This document shows, one piece after another, positions 6,465-40,336 of a stretch of DNA of 64,000 bases. The notes under the pieces were generated by a model. The model had not been told where the DNA came from. It made no database searches and was given only the letters and a program-made list of their open reading frames with translations. A program made the translations under genes and the position numbers. The DNA comes from Flavobacterium cupriresistens (GTDB taxonomy: Bacteria; Bacteroidota; Bacteroidia; Flavobacteriales; Flavobacteriaceae): contig NZ_CP087134.1 of the NCBI RefSeq assembly GCF_020911925.1, positions 5,676,614 through 5,740,613 of the forward strand, given 5' to 3'. Each line of letters starts with the position of its first letter. Position 1 is the stretch's first letter.

Positions 6465-6598
6465 AAACCTAACAGGTTTTAGAAACCTGTTAGGTTTGCG
6501 AAATATAAAATCTCCAATAGCTTTGTGGCAATTGGAGATTTTTTTTTAACCTTAGGGACTTCGAATAAGACCTAACAGGTTTCTAAAACCTGTTAGGT
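6465..6598. repeat. Two mutually inverted palindromes flanking a terminator
   Basis: Palindrome 1 (6465-6497) has 15-bp arms AAACCTAACAGGTTT / AAACCTGTTAGGTTT and a 3-nt loop TAG. Palindrome 2 (6570-6598) has 13-bp arms and loop CTA, and is the exact reverse complement of palindrome 1 over its length. The secA terminator lies between them. Confidence 0.85.
6508..6547 (+). terminator. secA terminator
   Basis: AATCTCCAAT (6509-6518) pairs perfectly with ATTGGAGATT (6531-6540) and is followed by seven T. It lies about 70 nt past the secA stop. Confidence 0.88.
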
Positions 6599-6651: not shown

Positions 6652-6659
6652 TATTTTTG
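6652..6659 (+). promoter_or_regulatory. Promoter -7 element of the metal-acquisition locus
   Basis: TATTTTTG followed by C matches the -7 consensus. Its last three bases are the TTG that would otherwise look like a start at 6657, which argues that the true start is the downstream TTG at 6684. Confidence 0.7.
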
Positions 6660-6683: not shown

Positions 6684-7061
6684 TTGAAACGCATTTTCAT
6701 CATATTGCTTTCCTGCATGCTATTAGTTCCCTCTTTTGGCAGTTTCTTTGTTTATACCTCCTTCAAATTAAATCAGGACGAAATTTCAAAAACCATTTGT
6801 GTACAGCGTAAAATGCTTTTCAACAATTGTAATGGCCGATGTGAACTTCAGAAAAGTTTGAAGAAATATGCCGACAACGAAAAGAAAATGCAGGACAATC
6901 TGAAGGAAAAAGCAGAAATCGTTTACATTCAGAATACCCTTCTAAATACTTTCAAATTAGTAGCCCCAATCGAATCAAAAACAAATCTTTTTGCTTCTTT
7001 TGACGGGAAACCAATTTCGGTTTCAAAAACTACTTTCCGCCCTCCCTCCTATTTTATATAA
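6684..7061 (+). CDS. Small membrane/periplasmic protein with a CNGxC motif (copy A)
   Basis: The protein (125 residues from TTG 6684) starts MKRIFIILLSCMLLVPSFGSFF, an N-terminal signal or membrane anchor. It continues with a periplasmic segment TICVQRKMLFNNCNGRCELQ whose three cysteines look like a metal- or disulfide-binding site, then a Lys/Glu-rich helix. I do not recognise a named family. It is about 70% identical to copy B at 10189-10566. The start was chosen because both copies begin TTGAAACGC at the same point, and because the earlier TTG at 6657 lies inside the -7 element. It heads a locus with MbnP- and MbnH-like proteins, which suggests a role with metal. Confidence 0.8.
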   Translation: MKRIFIILLSCMLLVPSFGSFFVYTSFKLNQDEISKTICVQRKMLFNNCNGRCELQKSLKKYADNEKKMQDNLKEKAEIVYIQNTLLNTFKLVAPIESKTNLFASFDGKPISVSKTTFRPPSYFI

Positions 7062-7172
7062 TTTTTAAAAATTTATTTCAATTGCTATTGAAATGATTTC
7101 TCATTGTTCTTAAAAACAATGAAATAGTGCTTACGCCTATTCTAAATTTAAAATTATATAAAATTCATAAAA

Positions 7173-7982
7173 ATGAAAAAAATAGTATACAAGACTATAG
7201 TGCTTCTGACACTTAGTATTTTTATTACAGCCTGTTCTAGCGATGATAACAACGAAAAAAACACAACAGGAACGGGAAAATTAGGTTTGAAATTTGACAA
7301 TTCTTTTGGAGACAATGACTTAATTTTAGAAACCCAACCCAATACTACCAAAAACAACGAGGTTTTAAAAATCAATCTCGTTCGTTATATTGTCAGCAAT
7401 ATTGTTCTGACAAAAGCAGACGGAACTACTTTTACCTATCCAAAAGCACAGAGCTACTTTATTGCCGATGAAGGGGATGCTACTGCAGGATACCAATTTA
7501 ATCTTACTGATGTTCCTGCCGGAGATTATACCAAAGTTAAATTTGGCATTGGAGTAGACAAAGAACAATGGCTTTTGGGAGCTTCGGGACAAGGCGATTT
7601 TTTAGCCAAGGCACAAGCCAAGGATCTGATTTGGAGCTGGTCTGCAGGTTATAAATTTATAGCCTTCGAAGGAACTTTTACCTCTTCTACCGTTAAAACT
7701 GCAGTCCCTTTTATGGTGCATACAGGGCAAATCGGTACAGCATATAATTATACAGAAGTAACGCTGGACTTACCTACCAAAGCCTTAGTGCGAACTACTA
7801 TCACACCGGCTATTCACATCGTAACAGATTTATCTAAAATTCTGGACGGAGAAAACACCATTAAACTATCTGATTACAACAAAGGCGGAATGGGTGCTAT
7901 GATTATGGGAGGTGAAGCCTTACCTAAAATCACTACTAACATCTCAAAAATGTTCAGAATAGATCACGTACATAACAATTAG
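7173..7982 (+). CDS. MbnP-like copper-binding lipoprotein
   Basis: This 269-residue lipoprotein (lipobox FITAC, Cys21) matches the MbnP family. The features are GKLGLKFDNSFGD, then a LVRYIVSNIVL segment, GYQFNLTDVPAGDYTKVKFGIGVD, and the diagnostic WSWSAGYKFIAFEG motif. MbnP proteins are periplasmic or surface copper-binding partners of the dihaem enzyme MbnH, which in methanotrophs oxidises a tryptophan of MbnP to kynurenine. Several Trp residues here (KEQW, IWSW) are candidates. The MbnH-like gene follows 150 nt downstream. Copper as ligand is inferred from the family, not visible directly. Confidence 0.88.
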   Translation: MKKIVYKTIVLLTLSIFITACSSDDNNEKNTTGTGKLGLKFDNSFGDNDLILETQPNTTKNNEVLKINLVRYIVSNIVLTKADGTTFTYPKAQSYFIADEGDATAGYQFNLTDVPAGDYTKVKFGIGVDKEQWLLGASGQGDFLAKAQAKDLIWSWSAGYKFIAFEGTFTSSTVKTAVPFMVHTGQIGTAYNYTEVTLDLPTKALVRTTITPAIHIVTDLSKILDGENTIKLSDYNKGGMGAMIMGGEALPKITTNISKMFRIDHVHNN

Positions 7983-8037
7983 TCCAATTCCGAAAATATA
8001 GTACTTATTATTTTTCAGAATGCTAATACATCCTTTG

Positions 8038-8082
8038 CCTTTTTATTTTTCGAGTTTGTTCTAAACTTAAAAAATAAAAAGG
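8038..8082 (+). other. Hairpin between the mbnP- and mbnH-like genes
   Basis: CCTTTTTATTTTT (8038-8050) pairs with AAAAATAAAAAGG (8070-8082), with an inner GTTT/AAAC pairing. It may be an attenuator or an mRNA-stabilising element that sets relative expression of the two genes, since no T-run follows it. Confidence 0.5.
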
Positions 8083-8132
8083 ACACTGATGGACTGAAAA
8101 TGTAAAATACTGTTTTCAAAAAGCATCATACC

Positions 8133-9179
8133 ATGCAGAAAATAAAATTTGTTCTCTGGCTGTTTATTCCACTATTTTTAGGTTGCTCCGATAATGAAGA
8201 AGATCAAGAATATGTAAATCTTCCTTTAGCGTTTACTGTTCCATCCAATTTTCCGGATATGACCTATAATATTGCTTTAAATAAGCCTACAGAAAAAGGT
8301 TTCGAGTTAGGAAAAAAATTATTCTACGACGGACGCCTGGCCTCTGATGGCTTGGTCTCCTGTGGTTTTTGCCACATACAGGCTAATGCTTTCACACACC
8401 ACGGTCACACAGTCAGTCATGGTGTAAATAATGAGCAAGGTACTCGTAACGCAACACCAATTCAGAATATGGCCTTCCAGTCTGCTTATATGTATGACGG
8501 AGCTGCCACTAATCTGGACTTACAACCCATTATTCCGTTGACAAGTATCATTGAAATGAATGGCGATCTGAACGCTATTCTGGCCATGATGAAAGCAGAT
8601 AAAGAATACCGAAAATTATTTGGTCAGGCTTTTGACGACGGCACAATCAGCACTGAGAATATGCTCAAAGCTCTCTCGCAGTTTATGGTCATGATGGTTT
8701 CATCTAATTCTAAATTTGATAAATACAGACGAAATGAAATTGGTGGCACTTTTACTGCTGATGAAAAAGCGGGTTACGATTTATTCCAATCAAAATGTGC
8801 CTCCTGCCATGCAACAGATTTAATGACGGACCATTCCTTTCGCAATAATGGCCTGGCAGTAAATCCTAAAGTAAAAGATGTCGGACGTTACAGAGTCACT
8901 GAATTAGTATCTGATTATTATAAATTCAAAGTACAAAGTCTCCGTAATATAGAAGTTTCGGCTCCCTATATGCACGACGGACGATTTGGAACGCTGCAAG
9001 CAGTACTTAACCATTATGCCTCGGGAGTAGTGGACTCTGAAACTTTAGACCCTATTTTGAAACAAAATGGAAATCTCGGGATCCCACTTTCCGAAAATGA
9101 AAAAAAACAAATTATTGCGTTTTTAAAAACGCTCACTGATACACAATATTTAACCGATAAGCGATTTTCGGAATTTTAA
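8133..9179 (+). CDS. Dihaem cytochrome c peroxidase of the MbnH type
   Basis: This 348-residue lipoprotein (lipobox LFLGC, Cys18) has two c-type haem sites, CGFCH (77-81) and CASCH (222-226). Conserved peroxidase/MauG segments include NMAFQSAYMYDGA and SLRNIEVSAPYMHDGRF. MbnH is a MauG-like enzyme that modifies MbnP. Classical CcpA peroxidases are close relatives, so hydrogen-peroxide detoxification is an alternative, but placement behind an MbnP gene favours MbnH. The next gene begins 11 nt downstream, so co-transcription is likely. Cytochrome c maturation genes are not in the window. Confidence 0.88.
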   Translation: MQKIKFVLWLFIPLFLGCSDNEEDQEYVNLPLAFTVPSNFPDMTYNIALNKPTEKGFELGKKLFYDGRLASDGLVSCGFCHIQANAFTHHGHTVSHGVNNEQGTRNATPIQNMAFQSAYMYDGAATNLDLQPIIPLTSIIEMNGDLNAILAMMKADKEYRKLFGQAFDDGTISTENMLKALSQFMVMMVSSNSKFDKYRRNEIGGTFTADEKAGYDLFQSKCASCHATDLMTDHSFRNNGLAVNPKVKDVGRYRVTELVSDYYKFKVQSLRNIEVSAPYMHDGRFGTLQAVLNHYASGVVDSETLDPILKQNGNLGIPLSENEKKQIIAFLKTLTDTQYLTDKRFSEF

Positions 9180-9190
9180 AATAAAAAAGA

Positions 9191-10150
9191 ATGAAAAGAA
9201 TACTCTTAACAATAGTGCTTTTAGTTGGGCTTTCGGCCTATAGTTTTACAGAAAAAGACTCACTGTCAAGTTTTACCTTTCAGCGTTTGGCTATGCTCGA
9301 AGATTTTGATTGTGACGCTTGCGGGTGCTCGGCAAGTGGCGGAAGCATGGGATTTAGTTCTATGTTAAACAATAACTTTGTCGGAGTTCGTTACTTCAAA
9401 CAAAGTTATACCAGCCGCGACGGGATTTTCAACAATTCTCCGTGGATCGACGAGAACTTCAATACTGTTCAGGCCTGGGCAAGGATTCCGATTACGCAAA
9501 AAATCCAGATTTCGGCACTGGTTCCGTACCATTTTCACGAACGTGAATTAACATCAGGTACCGAAAGTATTGCAGGTTTGGGGGACATCACCGTAATGGG
9601 ACTATATTCTGTTTATGAAACAAAAAAAGACAGCACCCTCTTTACCCACAAAATAAACCTGGGCGCAGGAGTAAAAATGCCAACCGGAAAATTTGCCGAA
9701 GCCAATAATTTAGGAAGTATCAATCAGAGCTTTCAATTAGGAACCGGAAGCTGGGATTATTTATTGGTTTCAGAATATGTAATTAAGAAAAATAATTTAG
9801 GGTTGAACACCATGCTGAACTATGTTTTCAAAACCGAGAACAGTAAAAACTATCAGTACGGAGATCAGTTTAACTATGCCAGTACGCTATTTTATTTATT
9901 TAATCTGGAGGCCTTTCAACTGGTTCCACAATTAGGTTTAGCCGGAGAAGTTTATCAAACCAACAAACAGCATGGTTTAGATTTGCCCGATACGGCAGGT
10001 GATATACTGTTTGGGAAATTCGGAATTGAGGTCGGAAGAGACAAATTTTCTTTGGGTATAAACGCCATGTTGCCTATCAACCAAAATTTATCCAGCGGAA
10101 AAATGGAAGCCAATTACAGATGGGGTATTAATTTGAATTACACCCTTTAA
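9191..10150 (+). CDS. Outer-membrane beta-barrel-like protein with a CDACGC cluster
   Basis: This 319-residue protein has a signal peptide (MKRILLTIVLLVGLSAYSF). Near the mature N-terminus it carries FDCDACGCSASGGSMG, a compact three-cysteine cluster, and then alternating beta segments rich in Tyr, Asn and Gly that end NYRWGINLNYTL, typical of an outer-membrane barrel. I cannot name the family. The barrel region resembles transporter/MetA-pathway-type outer-membrane proteins found beside metal genes. It is tightly linked to the MbnH-like gene. Metal binding by the Cys cluster is inference. Confidence 0.75.
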   Translation: MKRILLTIVLLVGLSAYSFTEKDSLSSFTFQRLAMLEDFDCDACGCSASGGSMGFSSMLNNNFVGVRYFKQSYTSRDGIFNNSPWIDENFNTVQAWARIPITQKIQISALVPYHFHERELTSGTESIAGLGDITVMGLYSVYETKKDSTLFTHKINLGAGVKMPTGKFAEANNLGSINQSFQLGTGSWDYLLVSEYVIKKNNLGLNTMLNYVFKTENSKNYQYGDQFNYASTLFYLFNLEAFQLVPQLGLAGEVYQTNKQHGLDLPDTAGDILFGKFGIEVGRDKFSLGINAMLPINQNLSSGKMEANYRWGINLNYTL

Positions 10151-10188
10151 ACATTAAAAAACAAATTCATTAAACAACGAAATTTATC

Positions 10189-10566
10189 TTGAAACGCTTT
10201 CTTATCCTATTGCTTTCTTGCATGCTATTAGTCCCCTCTTTTGGCAGTTTCTTTGTATATACTACCTTCAAATTAAATCAGGAAGAAATCTCAAAAACCA
10301 TCTGTGTACAACGAAAAATGCTTTTTAATGATTGTAATGGTCGATGTGAACTTCAAAAGAGTTTAAAAAAGTATGAGGATAACGAAAAAAGAATGCAAAA
10401 CAATCTGAAAGAAAAAACAGAAATAGTTTACATTCAAAATCTTGGCATTACTCCTTTTGAACTCCTCCTGCCAATCGAAACTGAAGCAAAACTTTATGCC
10501 TCTCTCAATGAGAAACCGGTTTCGATTTCAAAGACTGTATTTCATCCTCCCTCCTGTCTTCTATAA
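10189..10566 (+). CDS. Small membrane/periplasmic protein with a CNGxC motif (copy B)
   Basis: This 125-residue paralogue of the gene at 6684-7061 has the same N-terminal anchor (MKRFLILLLSCMLLVPSFGSFF), the same TICVQRKMLFNDCNGRCELQ segment and a similar Lys/Glu helix. The C-terminus (FHPPSCLL) gains a further cysteine compared with copy A (FRPPSYFI). It starts with TTG. It sits 94 nt before the TonB-dependent receptor, while copy A precedes the MbnP gene, so each half of the locus is headed by one copy. No function is known to me. Confidence 0.8.
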   Translation: MKRFLILLLSCMLLVPSFGSFFVYTTFKLNQEEISKTICVQRKMLFNDCNGRCELQKSLKKYEDNEKRMQNNLKEKTEIVYIQNLGITPFELLLPIETEAKLYASLNEKPVSISKTVFHPPSCLL

Positions 10567-10660
10567 ATTTTAGTCCTTTTTTCAATGAAAATTGAAAAAA
10601 TCTTTCTTGGCATAAAGCCAAAGAATATCGGTTACTCCTTAAAAATTTATAGCATTTAAA

Positions 10661-12820
10661 ATGAAAAAAATATACTTTATCCTACTGATCATAGGACAAT
10701 GTGTTTTTGCACAAAACAAAGTAGAGAAAGATTCTACCAAATCTCAGGAACTGGAAAATGTTTTTGTAACGGCCAATCGTACTGCCACTTTACGCAAAGA
10801 AACCCCTGTTGCCATTAGTAAAATAACGGCCAAAACCATCAATGAAACCAAGGCAACTGCGGTTTACGAAATCATCAACAAAACCCCGGGCGTATTGATG
10901 GTCAATATAGGAAACGAACAACACATGATGTCGATTCGTCAACCTATGACAACCAATGCCTATTATTTGTATTTGGAAGATGGTTTACCGATTCGCCCCA
11001 TGGGAATCTTCAACCACAATGCGTTATTAGAAATTAATCAATTTAACATTCAAAATATTGAAGTCGTAAAAGGCCCCGTTTCTTCTCTGTACGGACCGGA
11101 GGCTGTCGGCGGAACCATCAATTTAATTTCGCTAAAACCACCTGTTGACCCCGAATTTAAGTTTGGAGTTCAGGTAGATACTTATGGCTACAGGAGATTT
11201 CAGGCTGCCGGTGGTGCAACTGTTGGAAAAGTCGGTTTTCATATTGCCGGAATTTCAAATTTACAAGAAAATGGCTGGATGGCGTATTCTGATTACAACA
11301 AAGACAATCTCAATGCCAGAATCGATTACAATATCTCCCCTTCTACCCGATTGATCAGTAACACAATGTATGGAAAATACTATTCGGATATGAGCGGTAC
11401 GGTTAACGAAGATGCTTTTAACAACAGAACCTACAAAAGCACTTCTAATTTCACGTACAGAAAATCGGAAGCTTTGCGAACCCGTCTAACATTAGAACAC
11501 GACTGGAATAACAATTCAAGCAGTTATCTTACAGCCTATTTTCGTGATAATAAATTAGGACAAAATCCATCCTACGGAATCAGATGGAGTCCAACTGTCA
11601 ATCCTTCCACAGCCAAGGGCGAAGTAAATTCAAACAACTTCAAAAGTTACGGGGCAATTGGGCAGCACACCCAAAAGTTCGATTTCCTGAATACTAAAAT
11701 TGTAGCGGGTGCTTTATACGATTATTCCCCAGTAACCTATTGGTCGTATGTCCTTGATTTGAAAGCCAATCTAAATCCGGGAGAAGCAGGAAAACAAACC
11801 GTAGATTCTTATGAAATTATTGCCGAACATCCAGACTCAAAACTCGCGGATTATACCGCCGATATTATCAACACCGCCGGATATGCTCAGCTAAGTATTA
11901 ATCCGGTAAATAAATTAATCTTTACCGTTGGTGGTCGTTATGACAATATGAAAGTGAAGTATAACAACGCCCTCGATCTTTCCTCCGGGAGTAAGGTTTA
12001 TGATAAAATAACGTATAAAGCCGGAGCCAATTACAATCCGTTTACATTTGCGGGGATATATGCAAACTACTCACAAGGTTTTGCACCTCCCGGAATCACC
12101 TCCATTTTCAGAACTAAACCTGGTACAGGAGGGACAACAGCTGTTCCTGCCGAGTTTTATTACAATCTGGAACCGGCTACTTTCAATAATGTCGAAATAG
12201 GCGGATGGTTTTCTCTCTTAGAAAATAAACTAAACTTGGATTATGCATTCTATTATATGGAAGGCAAGAATGAATTACTAAATGTAAAACTTGCAGATAA
12301 TACCACTGATTATCGCTCGGCTGGAGAAACCCGCCACAAAGGAATTGAATTTGGTGCTACTTATAAACCTTCCAAACAATTCAACATTCGTCTTGGCGGA
12401 ACTTACGCACAACATACTTACATTGATTTTAAACTTTCGGACAAACCGTCAGATCCTGTTCAGAATCTAAACGGTAAAGAAATGCCCGCAGCTCCAAGAT
12501 GGTCCGGAAATTCTGAAGTTAGTTATTACCCCAATTGGCTTCCCAATTTAAGAACTTCAATTGAATGGCAGCTTGTTGGCAGTTATTACCAGGATCAGAT
12601 TAATACCTTCAAGTACAGCGGGTATAACTTGTTTAATGCCCGAATTGGTTATCAATGGAGAAAAATTGAAATCTATGGAAACGTAATGAATCTTACGGAT
12701 AAATTATATGCCTACAATGTCTCCAGAGCCAATATAGCAAATGCTCAACCCACTTATACAGCGGCAGCACCGAGAACTTTTGTATTTGGAATTCAGTATA
12801 ATTTTTCCTTAAAAAAATAA
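10661..12820 (+). CDS. TonB-dependent receptor, probably for a metal complex
   Basis: This 719-residue outer-membrane receptor has a signal peptide (FAQ cleavage region). A TonB-box/plug region follows (LENVFVTANRTATLRKETPVAISKI, then IEVVKGPVSSLYGPEAVGGTINL), then a 22-strand-type barrel ending in YNFSLKK. It has no SusC-like carboxypeptidase-regulatory extension, and no SusD follows, so it is siderophore/metallophore-class rather than glycan-class. The PepSY gene starts 2 nt after its stop, a pairing typical of metal-chelate uptake. The substrate cannot be read from sequence; copper or iron chelates are the leading options. Confidence 0.9.
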   Translation: MKKIYFILLIIGQCVFAQNKVEKDSTKSQELENVFVTANRTATLRKETPVAISKITAKTINETKATAVYEIINKTPGVLMVNIGNEQHMMSIRQPMTTNAYYLYLEDGLPIRPMGIFNHNALLEINQFNIQNIEVVKGPVSSLYGPEAVGGTINLISLKPPVDPEFKFGVQVDTYGYRRFQAAGGATVGKVGFHIAGISNLQENGWMAYSDYNKDNLNARIDYNISPSTRLISNTMYGKYYSDMSGTVNEDAFNNRTYKSTSNFTYRKSEALRTRLTLEHDWNNNSSSYLTAYFRDNKLGQNPSYGIRWSPTVNPSTAKGEVNSNNFKSYGAIGQHTQKFDFLNTKIVAGALYDYSPVTYWSYVLDLKANLNPGEAGKQTVDSYEIIAEHPDSKLADYTADIINTAGYAQLSINPVNKLIFTVGGRYDNMKVKYNNALDLSSGSKVYDKITYKAGANYNPFTFAGIYANYSQGFAPPGITSIFRTKPGTGGTTAVPAEFYYNLEPATFNNVEIGGWFSLLENKLNLDYAFYYMEGKNELLNVKLADNTTDYRSAGETRHKGIEFGATYKPSKQFNIRLGGTYAQHTYIDFKLSDKPSDPVQNLNGKEMPAAPRWSGNSEVSYYPNWLPNLRTSIEWQLVGSYYQDQINTFKYSGYNLFNARIGYQWRKIEIYGNVMNLTDKLYAYNVSRANIANAQPTYTAAAPRTFVFGIQYNFSLKK

Positions 12821-12822
12821 CC

Positions 12823-14427
12823 ATGAGTAAAGAAACAAACAGAAAAACGGCTAAAAAGAAGGATTCAAAATTCATTAAAAAAATCAAACAACACATGTAC
12901 AAATGGCATCGTGTTATTGGATTAATTACAATTGTTCCTGTAATTTTCTGGACCTTATCGGGTTTGATGCATCCTTTTATGGCACATTTTTTTAAACCTG
13001 AAATCGCCCGCGAAAAACTGGAACAACAGCATATCGATAAAAATCAGCTAAAGTATTCTATTCAGGAAGTTCTACAAAAAAACGAATTGACACAGTTCAA
13101 AAATTTTAGAATTGTATCTTTTAATAATGCTACTTATTACCAAGTAAAAACAATCCTTGGTGAGCTATGGTATTTTGACACCGCCACTGCCAAAAAACTG
13201 GAAAACGGAGATCAAAAATATGCCGAATGGCTATCGCGTTACTTTCTGGAGGATCAAAAAAGCGCCGTTAAAAAAAGTGAAGTCGTAACCGAATTTACTT
13301 CACAATACAAATATGTCAATCGTTATTTACCGGTTTACAAACTGACATTCGATCGTACGGATGGAATGGAAATTTATGTAGAAACTTCCTCAGGCAAGCT
13401 GGCGACCTTCAATCCAAATTCAAGGCAAGCTTTTATTTGGTTTTTTGACGTTTTTCATAATTGGTCGTTTATTGATGCCATCTCTAACAACAGTATCCGG
13501 ATTATAACGATGATCCTCCTCTTGTCTATTATTAGTTTTTCAGCTTTGAGTGGTATTGTAATTTATGGCTTATTGTGGAAACAATTTAAAAAAACAGATA
13601 ATTTACAACCCAAAAAAGGACTTCGAAAATACCACCGCCAAATCGGAATCTGGGTTTCTCTTTTTACTTTGACCTTTGCTTTTAGCGGTGGATATCACGC
13701 TACCACCAAATGGGAGCCTTACACTTTATCACAAATGGTTTACGAGCCTACTTTTGAAACCAAAGATATTGGCGTTGCAAACAACATTCTGAATTTAGAT
13801 TGGAGTCGTTTTCAAAACATTGGAATCATTACTTTAAACGACAGCATTTACTATCGTTGTCAGTTGACCGAAAAAGAAACCGGAAAATTCAAAAAACCAA
13901 AGTCGGACGCAAATTCAAAATGGGGCAAAAAAAAGGAGTCCAAATCAGAAGTGGTTTACCTCAATATGGCGACCAATACCATCACACCCAACCTTGATCT
14001 GCAATATGCGGAATTCCTTGCGTATTATTTTACAGATGGCGCCCCAAAAGCCGCTTGCTGTGAGATGACCGAAAGTTCAAATGACGAACCTCAACCCACT
14101 CTGGAAGATGTAAAACTACTGGAATCAAAAGTTTTAACTGATTTTGAAAGTCGTGAATATGGTTTTGTCAACAAAAGACTGCCAGTGACCAAACTAGCCT
14201 ATGACACCCCTGAAAAAACAACTTATTTTATCGAAACAGCAACTTCAAGATTAGCCGCTGTCATAAAAAATTCAGACAAAGTAGAAGGGTACTCCTTTGC
14301 CTTTTTGCATAAATTTTTATTCATGGACTGGGCAGGAAAAAACATTCGCGATCTGACAATGGTACTAGCCGCACTGATTATTTTAGTTGTCAGTGTCTTA
14401 GGGTTTGTTCTTTTTTTGAGAAAATAG
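12823..14427 (+). CDS. PepSY-domain inner-membrane protein, putative metal-chelate reductase
   Basis: This 534-residue protein is a PepSY-associated TM protein. It contains WHRVIGLITIVPVIFWTLSGLMH (about 28-50), a large periplasmic loop, a TM pair near 220-250, a second YHRQIGIWVSLFTLTFAFSG helix, another loop, and a C-terminal TM helix. The His residues beside helices resemble the haem-ligand pattern of periplasmic ferric-siderophore reductases. A CC pair (KAACCEM, about residue 410) in the second loop could bind soft metals. It is translationally close to the receptor (2-nt gap). Role in reductive release of metal is inferred from family and context. Confidence 0.85.
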   Translation: MSKETNRKTAKKKDSKFIKKIKQHMYKWHRVIGLITIVPVIFWTLSGLMHPFMAHFFKPEIAREKLEQQHIDKNQLKYSIQEVLQKNELTQFKNFRIVSFNNATYYQVKTILGELWYFDTATAKKLENGDQKYAEWLSRYFLEDQKSAVKKSEVVTEFTSQYKYVNRYLPVYKLTFDRTDGMEIYVETSSGKLATFNPNSRQAFIWFFDVFHNWSFIDAISNNSIRIITMILLLSIISFSALSGIVIYGLLWKQFKKTDNLQPKKGLRKYHRQIGIWVSLFTLTFAFSGGYHATTKWEPYTLSQMVYEPTFETKDIGVANNILNLDWSRFQNIGIITLNDSIYYRCQLTEKETGKFKKPKSDANSKWGKKKESKSEVVYLNMATNTITPNLDLQYAEFLAYYFTDGAPKAACCEMTESSNDEPQPTLEDVKLLESKVLTDFESREYGFVNKRLPVTKLAYDTPEKTTYFIETATSRLAAVIKNSDKVEGYSFAFLHKFLFMDWAGKNIRDLTMVLAALIILVVSVLGFVLFLRK

Positions 14428-14489
14428 GTGCTGAGTTATTAAGGTTCTAAGTGCCTAATTATTGCTATCAAAAAATCACAATTTTTCTA

Positions 14490-14666
14490 AACCATATAAG
14501 TCATTTAAGAAAATATAAGCTTCAGTTTAAATGATCTTAAATTACTTATATGGTTAAAAATACTAACAATAATCTCTAATGATTTGCTATTCCACTCATA
14601 AAGATTCTAAGCTATTTAAGAAAGTATGAGCTCCAATTTAAATGAACTTACATCACTTATATGGTT
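14490..14666. repeat. Long palindrome with a partial direct copy
   Basis: AACCATATAAGT (14490-14501) and ACTTATATGGTT (14544-14555) are perfect 12-bp arms, and inner ATTTAAGA/TCTTAAAT pairing extends the stem. A diverged direct copy of the right part (ATTTAAGAAAGTATGAGCTCC... ending in CACTTATATGGTT) lies at 14613-14666. It separates the convergent PepSY and trmH genes and probably provides termination. Confidence 0.75.
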
Positions 14667-14691
14667 AAAAAAACAAAACCGTCAAGCCTTC

Positions 14692-15407: not shown

Positions 15408-16382
15408 TTAATTCCTTCCGGCCAGTTGTGCTGTCAATTTCTCTTGCAGTTTTTCATATAAATGATTCACCTTAACCATGTCAATTGCTAAATTTTCACC
15501 TAGAAAAGAATCTCCGTTAAAAACGTTTGTTTCATTTTTAGAATGTTTTTTTAGACGTTCATACATTTGGTCAACCTCTTCGATATAATAATCCACATCT
15601 ATAATATCCATTACTTTTTCCAGAATTTCCCTCATTCCTTCTTTGTAATTATACACTGCAACATTTTGATCCTTTTCATAAAAATTAGAATACGCCTCAA
15701 AATATTTTTCCAGAACCACGGCACCATACTGCTGAAAAGTAAGTTCTTTCATCTGTTGATCATTAATTCCAAAAATTTTGGACGGAAGCAAATTCGGAAC
15801 CATGTGCATTCCTTTTAGTTTTGAATGAGATTTTAGTACTTCTGTTGGATTTCTATACAGTAGAATAAAAGGCAATTCAGGAAAAATGGCTCTTAATTCA
15901 TTCGCTTCAAAGATGTGCCAGGAATCTAATTTTACAATCAGATTCTTTTCTTCCGGGAATCTTTTTTGTCCCAACAAAGCAATTACCGCTTTGATAAGAA
16001 TCTTTTTTTTATCCAAATCAAAAAGGTCACTTCTTATAATGGCATCAATAATCGGAGCTTCTGCAATTACAATATTTTGCGGAGAAACCGCCAAAGACTG
16101 CGCCAACATTGTAGAACCACAACGCGATACATGAAAAACAAATGCTTTTAAATCAGTAGAAACTAACTGTTCCGACCAATCAATAAGATTTTCAACTGTG
16201 CTTACCAGTTTAAATCTTGTTGAATTATTAGAATATCCTACACATTTTACCAGTGTTTCTTCAAAAAAGGGATCTAAATATCTTTTATCTCCTAAATAAA
16301 TCCACTCAAAATAGACCTCGCCCTCTTTTTCAATTAACTTATTCGGAATCCAATGTAAAAGGGGATGATCGCTATTTTCCAT
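15408..16382 (-). CDS. PAPS-dependent sulfotransferase family protein
   Basis: This 324-residue protein has the 5'-phosphosulfate-binding loop HVSRCGSTMLAQSL (about residues 84-97), followed by a conserved acidic/His segment. It also has the 3'-phosphate-binding motif YRNPTEVLKSHSKL. These are hallmarks of PAPS-dependent sulfotransferases, which transfer sulfate to hydroxyl or amine acceptors. The acceptor is unknown. The APS-kinase gene lies 2 nt upstream on the same strand, so substrate supply and use appear coupled. There is no signal peptide, so it is probably cytoplasmic. Some bacterial members of this superfamily have other activities; the adjacency to APS kinase supports true sulfation. 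Confidence 0.85.
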   Translation of the reverse strand: MENSDHPLLHWIPNKLIEKEGEVYFEWIYLGDKRYLDPFFEETLVKCVGYSNNSTRFKLVSTVENLIDWSEQLVSTDLKAFVFHVSRCGSTMLAQSLAVSPQNIVIAEAPIIDAIIRSDLFDLDKKKILIKAVIALLGQKRFPEEKNLIVKLDSWHIFEANELRAIFPELPFILLYRNPTEVLKSHSKLKGMHMVPNLLPSKIFGINDQQMKELTFQQYGAVVLEKYFEAYSNFYEKDQNVAVYNYKEGMREILEKVMDIIDVDYYIEEVDQMYERLKKHSKNETNVFNGDSFLGENLAIDMVKVNHLYEKLQEKLTAQLAGRN

Positions 16383-16384
16383 GT

Positions 16385-16954
16385 TTAAAGATTTATTTTA
16401 TTTATAAGATGGTATTGCTCCTGAACAGAATCCGTTAGGTTATCTACTATAAAAGTATAAAGTTTATTGGTTGAAACAGTTTCAGATTCGGAATCTGTTT
16501 TTATTATTAAATCAGCTTTTACGGGGACTTCGTAAACAGCACTGATTCCTGTAAAATTATTGATCTTGTTGCTGTCAGTATCCGGCAGCAGTGCTTTTTT
16601 GTATAATCCTTTCGGATCTCTTTTTATGAGGTTATCTATTGAACAGTCCAGAAATACGGTTCTTACAAAAGAAAATTGACCGATTTCGTTTCTTAACTCT
16701 TCATAGGGATTGATGACCGACATTAAAACAATTACTTTTGACTGCACAAAATCCTGACCTACCTTAAATAAGCGTCTGACGTTTTCACATCGGTCCTCTT
16801 TCGAGAATCCCAGGTCTTTGCAAAGTGTTTGTCTGTAAACATCGCCATCAATTATTTCTACTTTGTGCCCTTGCTCGGCCAGCAAATACGAAACATTCTT
16901 TGCTAATGTAGTTTTTCCGGAACCTGACAAACCTGTAAATTGTATTAGTATCAT
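16385..16954 (-). CDS. cysC: Adenylylsulfate (APS) kinase
   Basis: This 189-residue kinase phosphorylates adenylylsulfate to PAPS. It has Walker A GLSGSGKTTLA (residues 9-19), the substrate segment IDGDVYRQTLCKDLGFSKEDRCENVRR (written in parts: IDGDVYRQTLCK, DLGFSKEDR, ENVRR) and the terminal YEVPVKADLIIKT element of CysC. It is a little shorter than typical CysC. No cysD, cysN or cysH is nearby, so it seems dedicated to the sulfotransferase encoded 2 nt downstream rather than to sulfate assimilation. Confidence 0.9.
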   Translation of the reverse strand: MILIQFTGLSGSGKTTLAKNVSYLLAEQGHKVEIIDGDVYRQTLCKDLGFSKEDRCENVRRLFKVGQDFVQSKVIVLMSVINPYEELRNEIGQFSFVRTVFLDCSIDNLIKRDPKGLYKKALLPDTDSNKINNFTGISAVYEVPVKADLIIKTDSESETVSTNKLYTFIVDNLTDSVQEQYHLINKINL

Positions 16955-17058: not shown

Positions 17059-17619
17059 TTAAGATAAAAGTAAATCCTCTACGTTTAATTTCACTTTTGG
17101 CTTATCTAACTTTTTGACTGCCTCCTTCACCCTTAATTGCTCTTCATTAGAAAGAAAAAGCGGAATTAATAAGCTCACATCAATTTTTAGTATTCTATTA
17201 ATAATTACCAAATCTTTTAAGGTAAAGGGCTTTATTCCATTAACGAGCTCAGACATATGAGTCTTACTTTTATGACCTAGGAGCGTAGCCAGATTTTCTT
17301 GAGTCAAATCAAGTTCTTTCAATTTTTTTCGAATAGATTGTTTTCGATTTTCGATAAAAACTCTTTCCAGTTCTGCTATTTGCTCAAACTTTTCAACCTC
17401 TAAAAGTTTACTTTCATCAATTAAATTAACATCACTCCATTCCGAACTTTCATATTTCGCAATTAAATCTCGAAGTTTTGATCTCAGATTTTTAAAGTGA
17501 ATACTCTCTTTTGCCAAAAGTCTTAATTTTCTATCAGCAATAAGCGCTCTCTCATAGTCTAATTCATTTGAAATGAACCCACTATCAATTATACTTTCAA
17601 TGTCAAAATTTGCTTTCAT
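17059..17619 (-). CDS. HigA-type antitoxin with C-terminal HTH
   Basis: This protein (186 residues from ATG 17619) has an N-terminal charged helical region and a C-terminal XRE-type helix-turn-helix (RKKLKELDLTQENLATLLGH, then KSKTHMSELVNG). It ends in a short tail. It overlaps the toxin gene by 4 nt (ATGA), which decides this start over an ATG 30 nt upstream inside the toxin gene. Antitoxins of this type neutralise the toxin and repress the operon; here the HTH is at the C-terminal half and the N-terminal half would contact the toxin or dimerise. Confidence 0.82.
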   Translation of the reverse strand: MKANFDIESIIDSGFISNELDYERALIADRKLRLLAKESIHFKNLRSKLRDLIAKYESSEWSDVNLIDESKLLEVEKFEQIAELERVFIENRKQSIRKKLKELDLTQENLATLLGHKSKTHMSELVNGIKPFTLKDLVIINRILKIDVSLLIPLFLSNEEQLRVKEAVKKLDKPKVKLNVEDLLLS

Positions 17620-17960
17620 TGTGTTATATATCCATTTTTTCTCAACCACTTTTCTATAGTTGATTTGTTATTTTTAAAAACAACTTCATACTCCTGATGC
17701 GTTCCTGCCCATGCAATTGTAGCTTCTCCCTCATCATCTAACTCAACTAAAATTAATGTTCTATGAAAATGAATATTGAAAAAGTAAAATCCATCCTTAT
17801 GAACACAATCTGCATCAGTCCAAACTTCCCTGAACTTCCCAGTTTTAGAATCAAAGTTTTCCAGATCAGTAATGAGTTTATCAATCGCACTGCATAACTT
17901 TTTATTTCCTATATTTTTAATTTTAATCTTTAAGATTATCTTTTTTCCTATAATTCTCAT
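17616..17960 (-). CDS. HigB-type toxin (mRNA interferase family)
   Basis: This 114-residue basic protein matches the HigB family toxin pattern, with a central FYFFNIHFHRTLILVELDDEG beta region (written in parts: FYFFNIHFHR, TLILVELDDEG) followed by AWAGTHQEYEVVF, where the conserved WxGTHxEYD-like motif is clear. Such RelE-fold toxins cut mRNA at the ribosome. Toxin-first gene order with a downstream HTH antitoxin is the HigBA arrangement. The N-terminus is very rich in Lys and Ile. A dyad at 17986-18010 lies upstream and may be the autoregulatory operator. Confidence 0.83.
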   Translation of the reverse strand: MRIIGKKIILKIKIKNIGNKKLCSAIDKLITDLENFDSKTGKFREVWTDADCVHKDGFYFFNIHFHRTLILVELDDEGEATIAWAGTHQEYEVVFKNNKSTIEKWLRKNGYITQ

Positions 17961-38173: not shown

Positions 38174-40336
38174 ATGAAAAGTCTAAAACTTATTTCATCA
38201 GCCATTACTATGCTTATATGTTTCGTATCTATGGCGCAGGAAAGAACAATTAAAGGAACGGTTTCAGATAATAGTTCTGTCGCACTTCCGGGGGTTAGTG
38301 TCACCATTAAAAAAACAAAAACGGGTACTTCAACAGACTTTGACGGGAAATATTCTATTCGAGCTCAAAAAGGAGATATTCTTATTTTTAGTTATATCGG
38401 ATTTAATACGGAAACCGTTGTTGTAAATGACAAAGACCTTATCAATGTAAAGATGAAAGAAGCTTCACAAAATCTAAATGAGGTTGTCGTTGTAGGATAC
38501 GGAACAAGTAATTCCGAATATACAACTCAAAACTACACCCGCTCGGAAAGAAAAAAAGATAAAAAATCAGTTACCGAAATGCTTCAGGGGAGAACTTCTG
38601 GTTTGCAAGTTCAAACTAACACGCAATATGTCGCTCCTTCGAACATCAAAATTCATGGCTCCCAGTCTCTTCCATCACAAAATGAGCCTTTGTATGTTCT
38701 AGATGGAGTTCCTGTAAAATCGCAGCAAATAGCGAGAATAAATCCAAATGACATTCAGGACATGAAAGTCTTAAAAGAAACATCGGCTACTTCAATTTAT
38801 GGAAGCAGAGCAGCAAACGGTGCTATCATAATTGCTACTAAAAACAACATTTACAAAAATCTTACGGAGCAGGAAATTAACAAAAAACTAAACATAACCG
38901 TTCCTGTTCAGCCAGAAGTAACTAATGAAGATTATGATACGTTTACAGAAAATGCATTCGAGAGCCCAAAAGCAGCGCCTTTGTCTACTTTCTCAATAGA
39001 TTTTGATAATGCTTCTTATACGAATATCAGACGTTTTATAAACAATGGACAGGCGGTTCCAAAAGATGCCGTTCGTGTGGAGGAAATGATCAATTTCTTT
39101 AAATATACCTATCCGCAGCCAAAAGATAAAGATCCGTTTTCTATCAATACCGAGTTAAGCGAATCTCCATGGAATCCTGAAAACAAAATTCTAAGAATTG
39201 GTTTGCAAGGCAAAAATATTCCAACCGAAAATCTACCGGCATCAAATCTTGTTTTCTTAGTAGATGTTTCAGGTTCTATGAATAGCACTAATAAATTGCC
39301 TTTATTGAAACAATCTATGAAAATATTGGTAAACGAACTTCGCTCAAAAGACAAGGTAGCTATTGTAGTTTATGCCGGTGCAGCCGGATTGGTTTTACCT
39401 CCAACTTCTGGAGACGAAAAAGAAACTATTATTAAAGCGTTAGACCATCTTAGCGCCGGAGGAAGTACAGCCGGAGGTGCGGGAATTGAATTGGCTTATA
39501 AAGTTGCGGTCGAAAATTTTATTAAAGGCGGAAATAACAGAGTGGTCTTAGCAACAGACGGTGATTTTAATGTGGGCAGTTCATCTAACGCTGATATGGA
39601 AACTTTAATTGAACAAAAAAGAAAAACGGGTGTTTTCTTAACTTGTCTTGGTTACGGCATGGGAAATTACAAAGACAGCAAAATGGAAACACTGGCTGAT
39701 AAAGGAAACGGAAACTATGCCTATATTGATAACATTCAGGAAGCGAATCGTTTTTTAAGCAAGGAATTTAAAGGTTCTATGTTTGCTATCGCGAAAGATG
39801 TAAAAATCCAGATTGAATTTAACCCCAAACAAGTTCAGGCGTATCGATTGATTGGGTATGAAAACAGAAAACTTCGCGCAGAAGATTTTAAAAATGACGC
39901 TATCGATGCCGGCGAACTAGGAAGTAATCATACAGTTACGGCTTTGTATGAAATTATTCCGGCCGGAGTTAAAAGTGATTATTTAAACCATCAGCCGGAT
40001 GCCTTAAAATATACTCCCGTTGAAGAAAACACAACTAAATACAGCACGGAATTGGCGACGATAAAATTCCGTTACAAAAAACCCGACGGAGACAAAAGTA
40101 TCGAAATGGTAGCTATAATTGAAAATAAAACCATCTCCCTAGAGAGCTCAAGTACCGATTTTAAATTCAGCACAGCCGTTGCCTGGTTCGGATTAAAATT
40201 GAGAGATTCAAAACTAATAACGAACAAATCTTCTGATGCTATTTTAAAATTGGCGAAACAAGGAGTAGCGAACGATACTGACGGATATAAAGCAGAATTT
40301 ATTCGTCTTATTGAAGGAGCAAAGCTAGCTTATTAA
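38174..40336 (+). CDS. Chimeric protein: carboxypeptidase-regulatory plus TonB plug plus YfbK/VWA domains
   Basis: This 720-residue secreted protein (signal peptide ending SMAQ) has, in order, a CarboxypepD-regulatory-like domain (about 24-95, GVSVTIKKTKTGTSTDFDGKYSI), a SusC-type linker NEVVVVGYGT, and a TonB plug (about 130-240, PLYVLDGVPV ... YGSRAANGAIIIATK). It then has a YfbK N-terminal segment (FSIDFDNASYTNIRRFINNG), a VWA domain with intact MIDAS (VDVSGSMNSTNK; GGSTAGGAG; VLATDGDFN), and a C-terminal DUF3520-like region. No beta-barrel follows the plug. The role could be metal-dependent adhesion or assembly, but is unknown. It follows the sigma/anti-sigma pair. Confidence 0.85.
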   Translation: MKSLKLISSAITMLICFVSMAQERTIKGTVSDNSSVALPGVSVTIKKTKTGTSTDFDGKYSIRAQKGDILIFSYIGFNTETVVVNDKDLINVKMKEASQNLNEVVVVGYGTSNSEYTTQNYTRSERKKDKKSVTEMLQGRTSGLQVQTNTQYVAPSNIKIHGSQSLPSQNEPLYVLDGVPVKSQQIARINPNDIQDMKVLKETSATSIYGSRAANGAIIIATKNNIYKNLTEQEINKKLNITVPVQPEVTNEDYDTFTENAFESPKAAPLSTFSIDFDNASYTNIRRFINNGQAVPKDAVRVEEMINFFKYTYPQPKDKDPFSINTELSESPWNPENKILRIGLQGKNIPTENLPASNLVFLVDVSGSMNSTNKLPLLKQSMKILVNELRSKDKVAIVVYAGAAGLVLPPTSGDEKETIIKALDHLSAGGSTAGGAGIELAYKVAVENFIKGGNNRVVLATDGDFNVGSSSNADMETLIEQKRKTGVFLTCLGYGMGNYKDSKMETLADKGNGNYAYIDNIQEANRFLSKEFKGSMFAIAKDVKIQIEFNPKQVQAYRLIGYENRKLRAEDFKNDAIDAGELGSNHTVTALYEIIPAGVKSDYLNHQPDALKYTPVEENTTKYSTELATIKFRYKKPDGDKSIEMVAIIENKTISLESSSTDFKFSTAVAWFGLKLRDSKLITNKSSDAILKLAKQGVANDTDGYKAEFIRLIEGAKLAY

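Follow-up and report, generated by a model that had tools for sequence, protein, structure and literature searches.

The closest described counterparts of the genes treated here are leader open reading frames (ORFs) of copper operons. CruR of Bordetella pertussis, a DUF2946 protein with a CxxC motif and a RAPP end at a spacing of 45 residues, heads the TonB receptor-PepSY_TM operon cruR-crtA-crpH; its arrest is relieved by copper, whereupon Rho stops transcription (PMC9426467), and the stall places two prolines in the P and A sites (PMC12992588). Other operons headed by DUF2946 leader ORFs contain MbnPH-like genes (PMC9426467), and a receptor with a PepSY_TM protein behind a copper leader ORF is known from CrtA and CrpH, OprC being a further copper receptor (PMC12914433, PMC13038864). 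CutF, from cutFOG of Rhodobacter capsulatus, combines a Pro-rich end with a stem-loop that shields the next ribosome site, and in SecM, MifM and VemP a nascent-chain pause melts a downstream stem (PMC9973294). Here we consider a stretch of 64,000 nucleotides (nt) from Flavobacterium cupriresistens (NZ_CP087134.1, positions 5,676,614 to 5,740,613; hereafter the window, in whose numbering coordinates are given), which holds two copies of a small gene termed CNGxC. We consider it likely that CNGxC genes act as leader ORFs: their exported peptides would sense copper while still nascent and thereby control translation of the copper-acquisition genes behind them.

Comparison with described leader ORFs

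CNGxC1 (6684..7061, plus strand, as are all genes of the locus) is a predicted exported leader ORF with a TTG start, the cysteines C39, C49 and C53, and the end FRPP followed by SYFI; it stands before the gene of an MbnP-like lipoprotein. The second putative leader ORF, CNGxC2 (10189..10566), also starts with TTG, ends in FHPP followed by SCLL and stands before a TonB-dependent receptor and a PepSY_TM membrane protein. An earlier note, made from the sequence alone, had described seven consecutive plus-strand genes at 6684-14427, two of them CNGxC copies, and this layout is confirmed in its coordinates and domains. The copies represent a duplication (85% identity across 269 nt) and are the sole matches to the family profile in the 5.74-Mb genome.

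CNGxC resembles CruR in being a small ORF with an export signal, a Cys motif and a C-terminal Pro-Pro near the stop, heading a receptor and a PepSY_TM gene. It differs in the motif (C...C-x-G-x-C instead of CxxC), the end ([HRK]PP instead of RAPP), the spacing (about 65 instead of 45 residues) and the host, which belongs to the Bacteroidota, and in having a covarying stem on the next start where CruR has a mapped Rho terminator. With CutF it shares export, a Cys motif, an end rich in proline and a stem that occludes the next start region; unlike in CutF, the stem is anchored at the stop codon of the leader and covers a start in a phylum without Shine-Dalgarno (SD) sites, the genes behind are mostly uptake genes instead of a multicopper oxidase, and the spacing is 65 instead of 45 residues (PMC9973294). 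In contrast to SecM, MifM and VemP, the probable ligand is a metal and not translocation activity.

The CNGxC family

The first sample consists of 99 CNGxC ORFs from 137 loci, window included, that were anchored on MbnP or PepSY. A same-strand ORF comes next behind 98 of them, namely MbnP (56), a receptor (19), another CNGxC (1), a barrel (1) or another type of gene (21); the lone exception concerns a 72-aa ORF that has MbnP behind it. Because this sample was anchored on MbnP or PepSY, 247 Bacteroidota genomes were scanned with a profile of the family, which matched in 99 genomes and in 49 of the 121 genera. A wider set was then formed by 40 hand-picked regions outside Flavobacterium, mainly with better-scoring matches, that hold 43 CNGxC genes. 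The first genes downstream include Plug (20), MbnP (8), YHS (3), CCP_MauG (2) and YtkA (1) proteins. The second genes (39 of 41, the far-off second genes of L188 and L193 being omitted from this set, A3) include CCP_MauG (8), SCO1 (3), PepSY_TM (3), OEP (1) and HlyD_D23 (1).

In 29 chosen members the columns I34, C39, C49, G51, C53, L55, P120 and P121 are invariant. The linker between the Cys motif and PP measures 65.1 +/- 2.2 aa (range 60-69) in 74 members outside Flavobacterium, and its pairwise identity in the same members is 23%, compared to 19% for shuffled linkers. The residue preceding PP is H, R or K in 65 of the 74, and two to five residues follow PP in 72. Exact motif and PP end occur together in 92 of the 99 ORFs of the first sample; the seven deviating ORFs comprise five with C-H-G-[KQ]-C and PPP (two of which extend beyond it) and two that are incomplete. 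The features of a leader ORF are thus found together: head position, an export signal (recognised by inspection of the hydrophobic N-terminus), a Cys motif, PP within the last 15 residues and a length below 150 aa, with some ORFs exceeding 150 aa when their 5'-most starts are used. The 5'-most start is TTG or GTG in 74 of the 99 ORFs, which suggests weak expression, although the choice of the 5'-most start itself favours such codons.

We note that no Pfam or NCBIfam family matches CNGxC above its cut-off. Hits to TGF_beta and DAN (7 and 2 of the 29 members, best E 0.0025) probably reflect a coincidence of Cys patterns and were rejected, as was an assignment to DUF2946 (PF11162), which is not among the 14 families listed for the 29 members at E <=1; in the genome itself the best match to PF11162 reaches 14.2 bits (cut-off 23.7) and is located elsewhere. 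Five loci (L130 and L132-L135) carry a variant leader, with C-H-G-[KQ]-C and VPPP, between a TonB receptor and MbnP, so that one gene cluster has two different leader ORFs.

The export-like N-terminus, the three invariant cysteines and the copper-linked neighbours would also suit a mature periplasmic chaperone for copper or another metal, or a membrane-tethered binder, that acts in trans and stands at the operon head for the sake of co-expression. This is close to how the earlier note read the genes, as an uncharacterised Cys-protein family that takes part in a pathway. We regard such a role as quite unlikely, and a regulator as more likely than a pathway component: a linker of near-fixed length and unfixed sequence, together with PP beside the stop, would suit a tethered nascent-chain sensor and not a folded chaperone, the stop codon itself is part of a covarying stem whose other arm lies at the start region of the following gene (described below), and the prevalence of TTG and GTG, with the reservation just given, hints at weak expression.

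CNGxC is often the first gene of its transcript, probably, as TAnnTTTG, the -7 promoter element of Bacteroidota, is enriched upstream: it occurs in the 150 nt before 52 of the 91 CNGxC genes scanned (8 of the 99 were not testable), mostly at one distance, compared to 11.6% of mononucleotide shuffles, while only 8 genes showed a -33 element. In the window, the match TATTTTTG (6652..6659, plus strand) is placed about 25 nt 5' of the CNGxC1 start, and a second in-frame TTG of CNGxC1 at 6657 overlaps it. The same scan of 150 nt found no TAnnTTTG before CNGxC2, and lone receptor-PepSY units mostly have one in front; the fused locus may therefore form one transcript with two internal switches.

A predicted stem between the CNGxC stop and the next start

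Both junctions of the window can form a stem. The 5' arm of stem 1 (7051..7065) spans the stop codon of CNGxC1 (7059-7061) and its 3' arm (7150..7164) ends 8 nt before the ATG of mbnP (7173); the inverted repeat I9 (7051-7068 with 7147-7164) coincides with it. Stem 2 is built alike, with a 5' arm (10561..10571) across the stop codon of CNGxC2 (10564-10566) and a 3' arm (10642..10652) ending 8 nt before the ATG of the receptor (10661). The folds have z values of -7.07 and -3.30, respectively, and 0 of 200 shuffles were equally stable in either case.

Across loci, pairing between the stop zone and the start zone was assessed by a partition-function test for gaps of 55-235 nt, which excludes other gaps and the truncated ORF L089, 12122; start codons were re-picked by a hydrophobicity rule, with manual shifts for L091 and L016. 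At least 8 expected pairs were obtained in 63 of 78 junctions; the corresponding share was 8% for 468 shuffles and 17% for 415 control junctions, likewise same-strand and drawn from these loci. When gaps are at least 80 nt, the comparison is 79% of 66 junctions versus 12% of 296 controls. Outside Flavobacterium 15 of 22 junctions are positive, and a replicate on named barrel-anchored loci, mostly from Flavobacterium, gave a stem in 87 of 90. The stop codon lies under the 5' arm in all 63 strong stems; the 3' arm, with medians of about -26 to -3, ends before the ATG in 35 and reaches or passes it in 28. This test replaced a first one based on duplex energies (-9.8 kcal/mol for 92 junctions versus -8.1 for 738 controls), whose modest gap we ascribe to the admission of short junctions with overlapping zones.

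The arms covary. The cross-genus intergenic alignment (A5) was too gapped for scoring, and arms were therefore swapped between 20 loci from 20 genera outside Flavobacterium: own arms pair with -9.53 kcal/mol, swapped arms with -4.65, and none of 20,000 permutations matched the own arms. In the wider set of Bacteroidota, too, no permutation out of 20,000 did as well as the own arms. In an alignment of 17 Flavobacterium receptor junctions (A4), 89.6% of the cells pair, 7 cells carry a change in both partners (a number reached by 0 of 500 shuffles), and the covariation score is attained neither by any of the 500 shuffles nor in any of six slid registers. Structure at this place is of known consequence in a relative: in F. 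johnsoniae, which initiates without SD sites, the region from -20 to +20 is generally less paired and structure there tunes initiation (PMC6847099).

An arrest peptide could also act as CruR does, through Rho-dependent transcription attenuation, with the stem being secondary. The precedent of CruR itself, which works with Rho (PMC9426467), and the 21 of 32 junctions of the wider phylum that have no strong stem speak for this; in the Flavobacteriaceae the stem is strong, covaries and is located on the start region, and we hold attenuation to be unlikely, though worth keeping in view. By eye the mbnP leader contains no intrinsic terminator; no terminator scan was run.

Gene order and separability of the two modules

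The distribution of the MbnP family PF20243 was surveyed in 149 Flavobacteriaceae genomes (148 genera) and 150 Flavobacterium genomes, of which 71 and 95, respectively, contain it. From the Flavobacteriaceae set, 76 of the 78 MbnP places other than our own were fetched, two fragments being omitted. Three contexts emerge. The first (A), CNGxC-MbnP-MbnH-barrel, is represented by 21 loci including the window. The second (B, 7 loci) consists of a YtkA-like lipoprotein and another TonB receptor followed by MbnP-MbnH, and CNGxC heads 6 of the 7. In the third (C), MbnP-MbnH heads a SUF iron-sulphur cluster; SufB/D homologues are found in 47 of the 78 loci clustered, and no CNGxC was detected in this context. 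Loci of the latter type (e.g. L036, L053 and L073) harbor a second MbnP/MbnH lineage together with an LVIVD/type IX secretion system (T9SS) secreted protein and a lipoprotein, and the second Trp of WxW is missing in both members aligned.

Among 80 named barrel-anchored loci the order CNG-MbnP-MbnH-barrel exceeds chance: it is found in 70, its tandem form in 5 more and neither in 5, where the count considers labelled plus-strand genes only and unlabelled intervening genes are not displayed. F. johnsoniae strain CI04 (L220) is one that carries CNGxC-mbnP-mbnH-barrel. Loci L225, L226, L230, L239 and L246 have a leader ORF heading a tandem MbnP-MbnH-MbnP-MbnH-barrel, and in L010, L014 and L021 a protein of about 145 aa with a lipoprotein-like start stands between two CNGxC genes upstream of MbnP.

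The receptor and the PepSY protein constitute a module separate from MbnP-MbnH-barrel. The PepSY protein occurs in 25 of the 150 Flavobacterium genomes and together with PF20243 in 9; in 5 of these 9 the markers are adjacent and in 4 they are distant or on different contigs, two of the four (G233 and G263) being fragmented assemblies that are uninformative on distance. In 18 of 19 PepSY places from other genomes CNGxC precedes receptor-PepSY (L092 has none), which bears out that receptor and PepSY are tied to this kind of head gene. The receptor/PepSY pair of the window was not found in the roughly 19 kb inspected at each of the 76 MbnP places in other Flavobacteriaceae genera, apart from two weak receptor matches.

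The earlier note had proposed that the seven genes form one dedicated copper pathway, complete from the outer to the inner membrane, and had named scattering of the genes in related genomes as evidence to the contrary. The complete order does recur, in 15 of the 80 named barrel-anchored loci. In most genomes, however, the halves are apart, so that the contrary condition applies in part, and each has a leader ORF of its own; as the two modules occur separately, we set the single seven-gene pathway aside as very improbable.

Proteins encoded behind the CNGxC genes

The MbnP-like lipoprotein (7173..7982) matches PF20243 with 144.7 bits (cut-off 27); its WxW (W154-S-W156) and a conserved His (H183) align with 7L6G, whose fold it matches. 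With 33.1 bits it remains under the cut-off (140) of the NCBIfam equivalog TIGR04052, and it represents a divergent subfamily. The MbnH-like di-haem enzyme (8133..9179) matches PF03150 with 160.7 bits (cut-off 25.6) and has 6E1C as its best solved relative (E 2.9e-37). It possesses a lipoprotein-type Cys and two CxxCH sites, which are kept in 124 of 125 and 125 of 125 aligned relatives; TIGR04039 is its best-scoring NCBIfam model, yet the score is 209.6 bits against a cut-off of 362.85. In methanotrophs MbnH oxidises the first Trp of the WxW of MbnP, resulting in a copper site with kynurenine. The present pair comprises the same two families in the same order, which upholds the initial identification of both proteins and the copper theme. 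It differs from the known pair by falling below the NCBIfam subfamily cut-offs, by the additional leader ORF and barrel, and by lacking an MbnB-family gene: PF05114, the core enzyme family of methanobactin synthesis, has 0 matches in the whole genome, so that, for this family, the statement that no methanobactin operon is seen extends from the window to the genome.

The Cys-cluster barrel (9191..10150) is of outer-membrane type, with an N-terminal C-D-x-C-G-C cluster, and matches no Pfam family above cut-off. Its structure model has 13 strands (predicted local distance difference test, pLDDT, 69), with FapF and the COG4313 channel as nearest solved folds; C44 and C46 are conserved in 53 of 53 relatives and C41 in 52. 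The TonB-dependent receptor (10661..12820; PF00593, PF07715) has a plug segment containing Met and His, in which M90 and H119 are kept in 20 of 20 and M80 and H88 in 19 of 20 Flavobacterium relatives, window included. The OprC-type model (TIGR01778 according to PMC9426467) is absent from its 23 NCBIfam matches. The PepSY_TM protein (12823..14427; PF03929) retains several His and the Cys-Cys pair C412/C413 in 20 of 20 relatives, window included, and is a candidate periplasmic metal reductase; it may be of the CrpH type, given its domain, its conserved His and its position behind a putative leader ORF and a TonB receptor.

Several further features surround the locus. A 29-nt inverted repeat is present twice between secA and CNGxC1 (6467-6598), the only two copies in the window, and two 79-nt direct repeats (81% identical) directly follow the PepSY gene (14488-14677). 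An APS kinase adjoins a weak sulfotransferase-like gene on the minus strand (15408-16954), and a helix-turn-helix protein beside a HigB-like protein slightly under its cut-off (17059-17960) is a possible toxin-antitoxin pair. A single chain encoded at 38174-40336 combines CarboxypepD-like, TonB Plug, von Willebrand A and YfbK C-terminal domains.

Proposed mechanism

Gene order, motifs, near-fixed spacing, the covarying stem and the promoter position were obtained by computation, and they could be joined as follows. The signal anchor of CNGxC would be inserted first. With the ribosome at the C-terminal [HRK]PP, the three-Cys motif would be about 65 residues away from the peptidyl centre and would have reached the periplasmic mouth of the translocon or passed it. 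When no copper is present, the ribosome would stall at PP or at the stop directly behind it and hold the 5' arm open, so that the SD-less start region of the downstream gene, be it mbnP or the receptor gene, stays accessible. Copper, bound as Cu(I) to the Cys motif, would relieve the stall, the stem would close on the start region and the uptake genes would be turned off. CNGxC1 would control MbnP-MbnH-barrel, with MbnH oxidising the first WxW Trp of MbnP for a copper site, and CNGxC2 would control receptor and PepSY, that is, uptake and reduction.

In this scheme we infer copper as the ligand, the arrest, the sign of the response and the roles in transport. Since the downstream genes are assigned to uptake, a sign as in CruR (low copper, pause, genes on) is the natural reading. 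It is conceivable that copper instead prolongs the pause and turns the genes on, which is how CutF behaves (PMC9973294), or that another metal, thiol redox or secretion status is sensed, as Cys motifs lack metal specificity. We consider these variants rather unlikely, given that receptor, PepSY and MbnP/MbnH, which make up most of the downstream genes, point to acquisition and not efflux, and that by likeness the receptor operon headed by CruR, which is copper-repressed, would suggest the same sign here.

A number of observations weigh against nascent-chain control by CNGxC as proposed. The end [HRK]PP differs from the RAPP and RGPP ends with demonstrated arrest; for CutF, PMC9973294 reports no detectable stall with the Pro-rich end alone, and a sign opposite to the one assumed here, copper prolonging the pause. 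A ribosome with PP in its P and A sites covers on average 41% of the 5' arm and a terminating ribosome 85%, which leaves the stall site uncertain. The stem is not universal: 15 of the 78 junctions fall short of the threshold, and gaps above 235 nt, including most YtkA-receptor junctions, were excluded and mostly showed weak pairing in the duplex test. Evidence for the stem is weaker outside the Flavobacteriaceae, with at least 8 pairs in 11 of 32 junctions of the wider Bacteroidota set (6% of shuffles; 11 of the 43 junctions were dropped by gap size). In alignment A4, 3 pairs show a double change, a count that 77 of 500 shuffles reach, and RNAalifold assigned a total of -2.96 with a covariation term of +0.06, hence no bonus, because most pairs are invariant within Flavobacterium. 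The sequences are related, and p-values overstate independence except in the one-per-genus set. Finally, many of the weaker profile matches cover only the N-terminal 60-80 positions, and the 99 of 247 genomes may include proteins without the PP end.

Relation to previous work and implications

The locus had been called not obviously described, which is true in part. Bordetella cruR-crtA-crpH and DUF2946 operons with MbnPH-like genes are in print, and so is the general idea, a rule-based search having counted CutF-like proteins, which may include CNGxC, among Bacteroidota (PMC9973294). The CNGxC family, its stop-anchored stem and a pair of switches for MbnP/MbnH and receptor/PepSY were not found described in the open-access literature, and a 2025 survey limited to RAPP/RGPP lists copper leader ORFs as missing in Bacteroidota (PMC12992588). 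CNGxC has no detectable sequence relation to DUF2946.

On a broader view, CNGxC proteins may be nascent-chain copper sensors found throughout the phylum Bacteroidota, with a 65-residue tether and a stop-anchored stem that controls SD-less initiation, and may represent a main post-transcriptional copper switch of the phylum, a movable head gene recruited repeatedly in front of receptor, MbnP/MbnH, barrel and, occasionally, efflux genes; for this wider claim we see the chances as evenly balanced. Little is known in Bacteroidota about how copper is acquired and how this is controlled. If true, the proposal would explain how translation of copper genes is controlled in a phylum without SD sites, by a compact switch with covariation support, and it would mean that metal-sensing leader peptides exist beyond DUF2946. 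The marker C...C[ND]G[KR]C with [HRK]PP beside the stop could then serve to locate copper operons, including those of receptors whose substrate is unknown.

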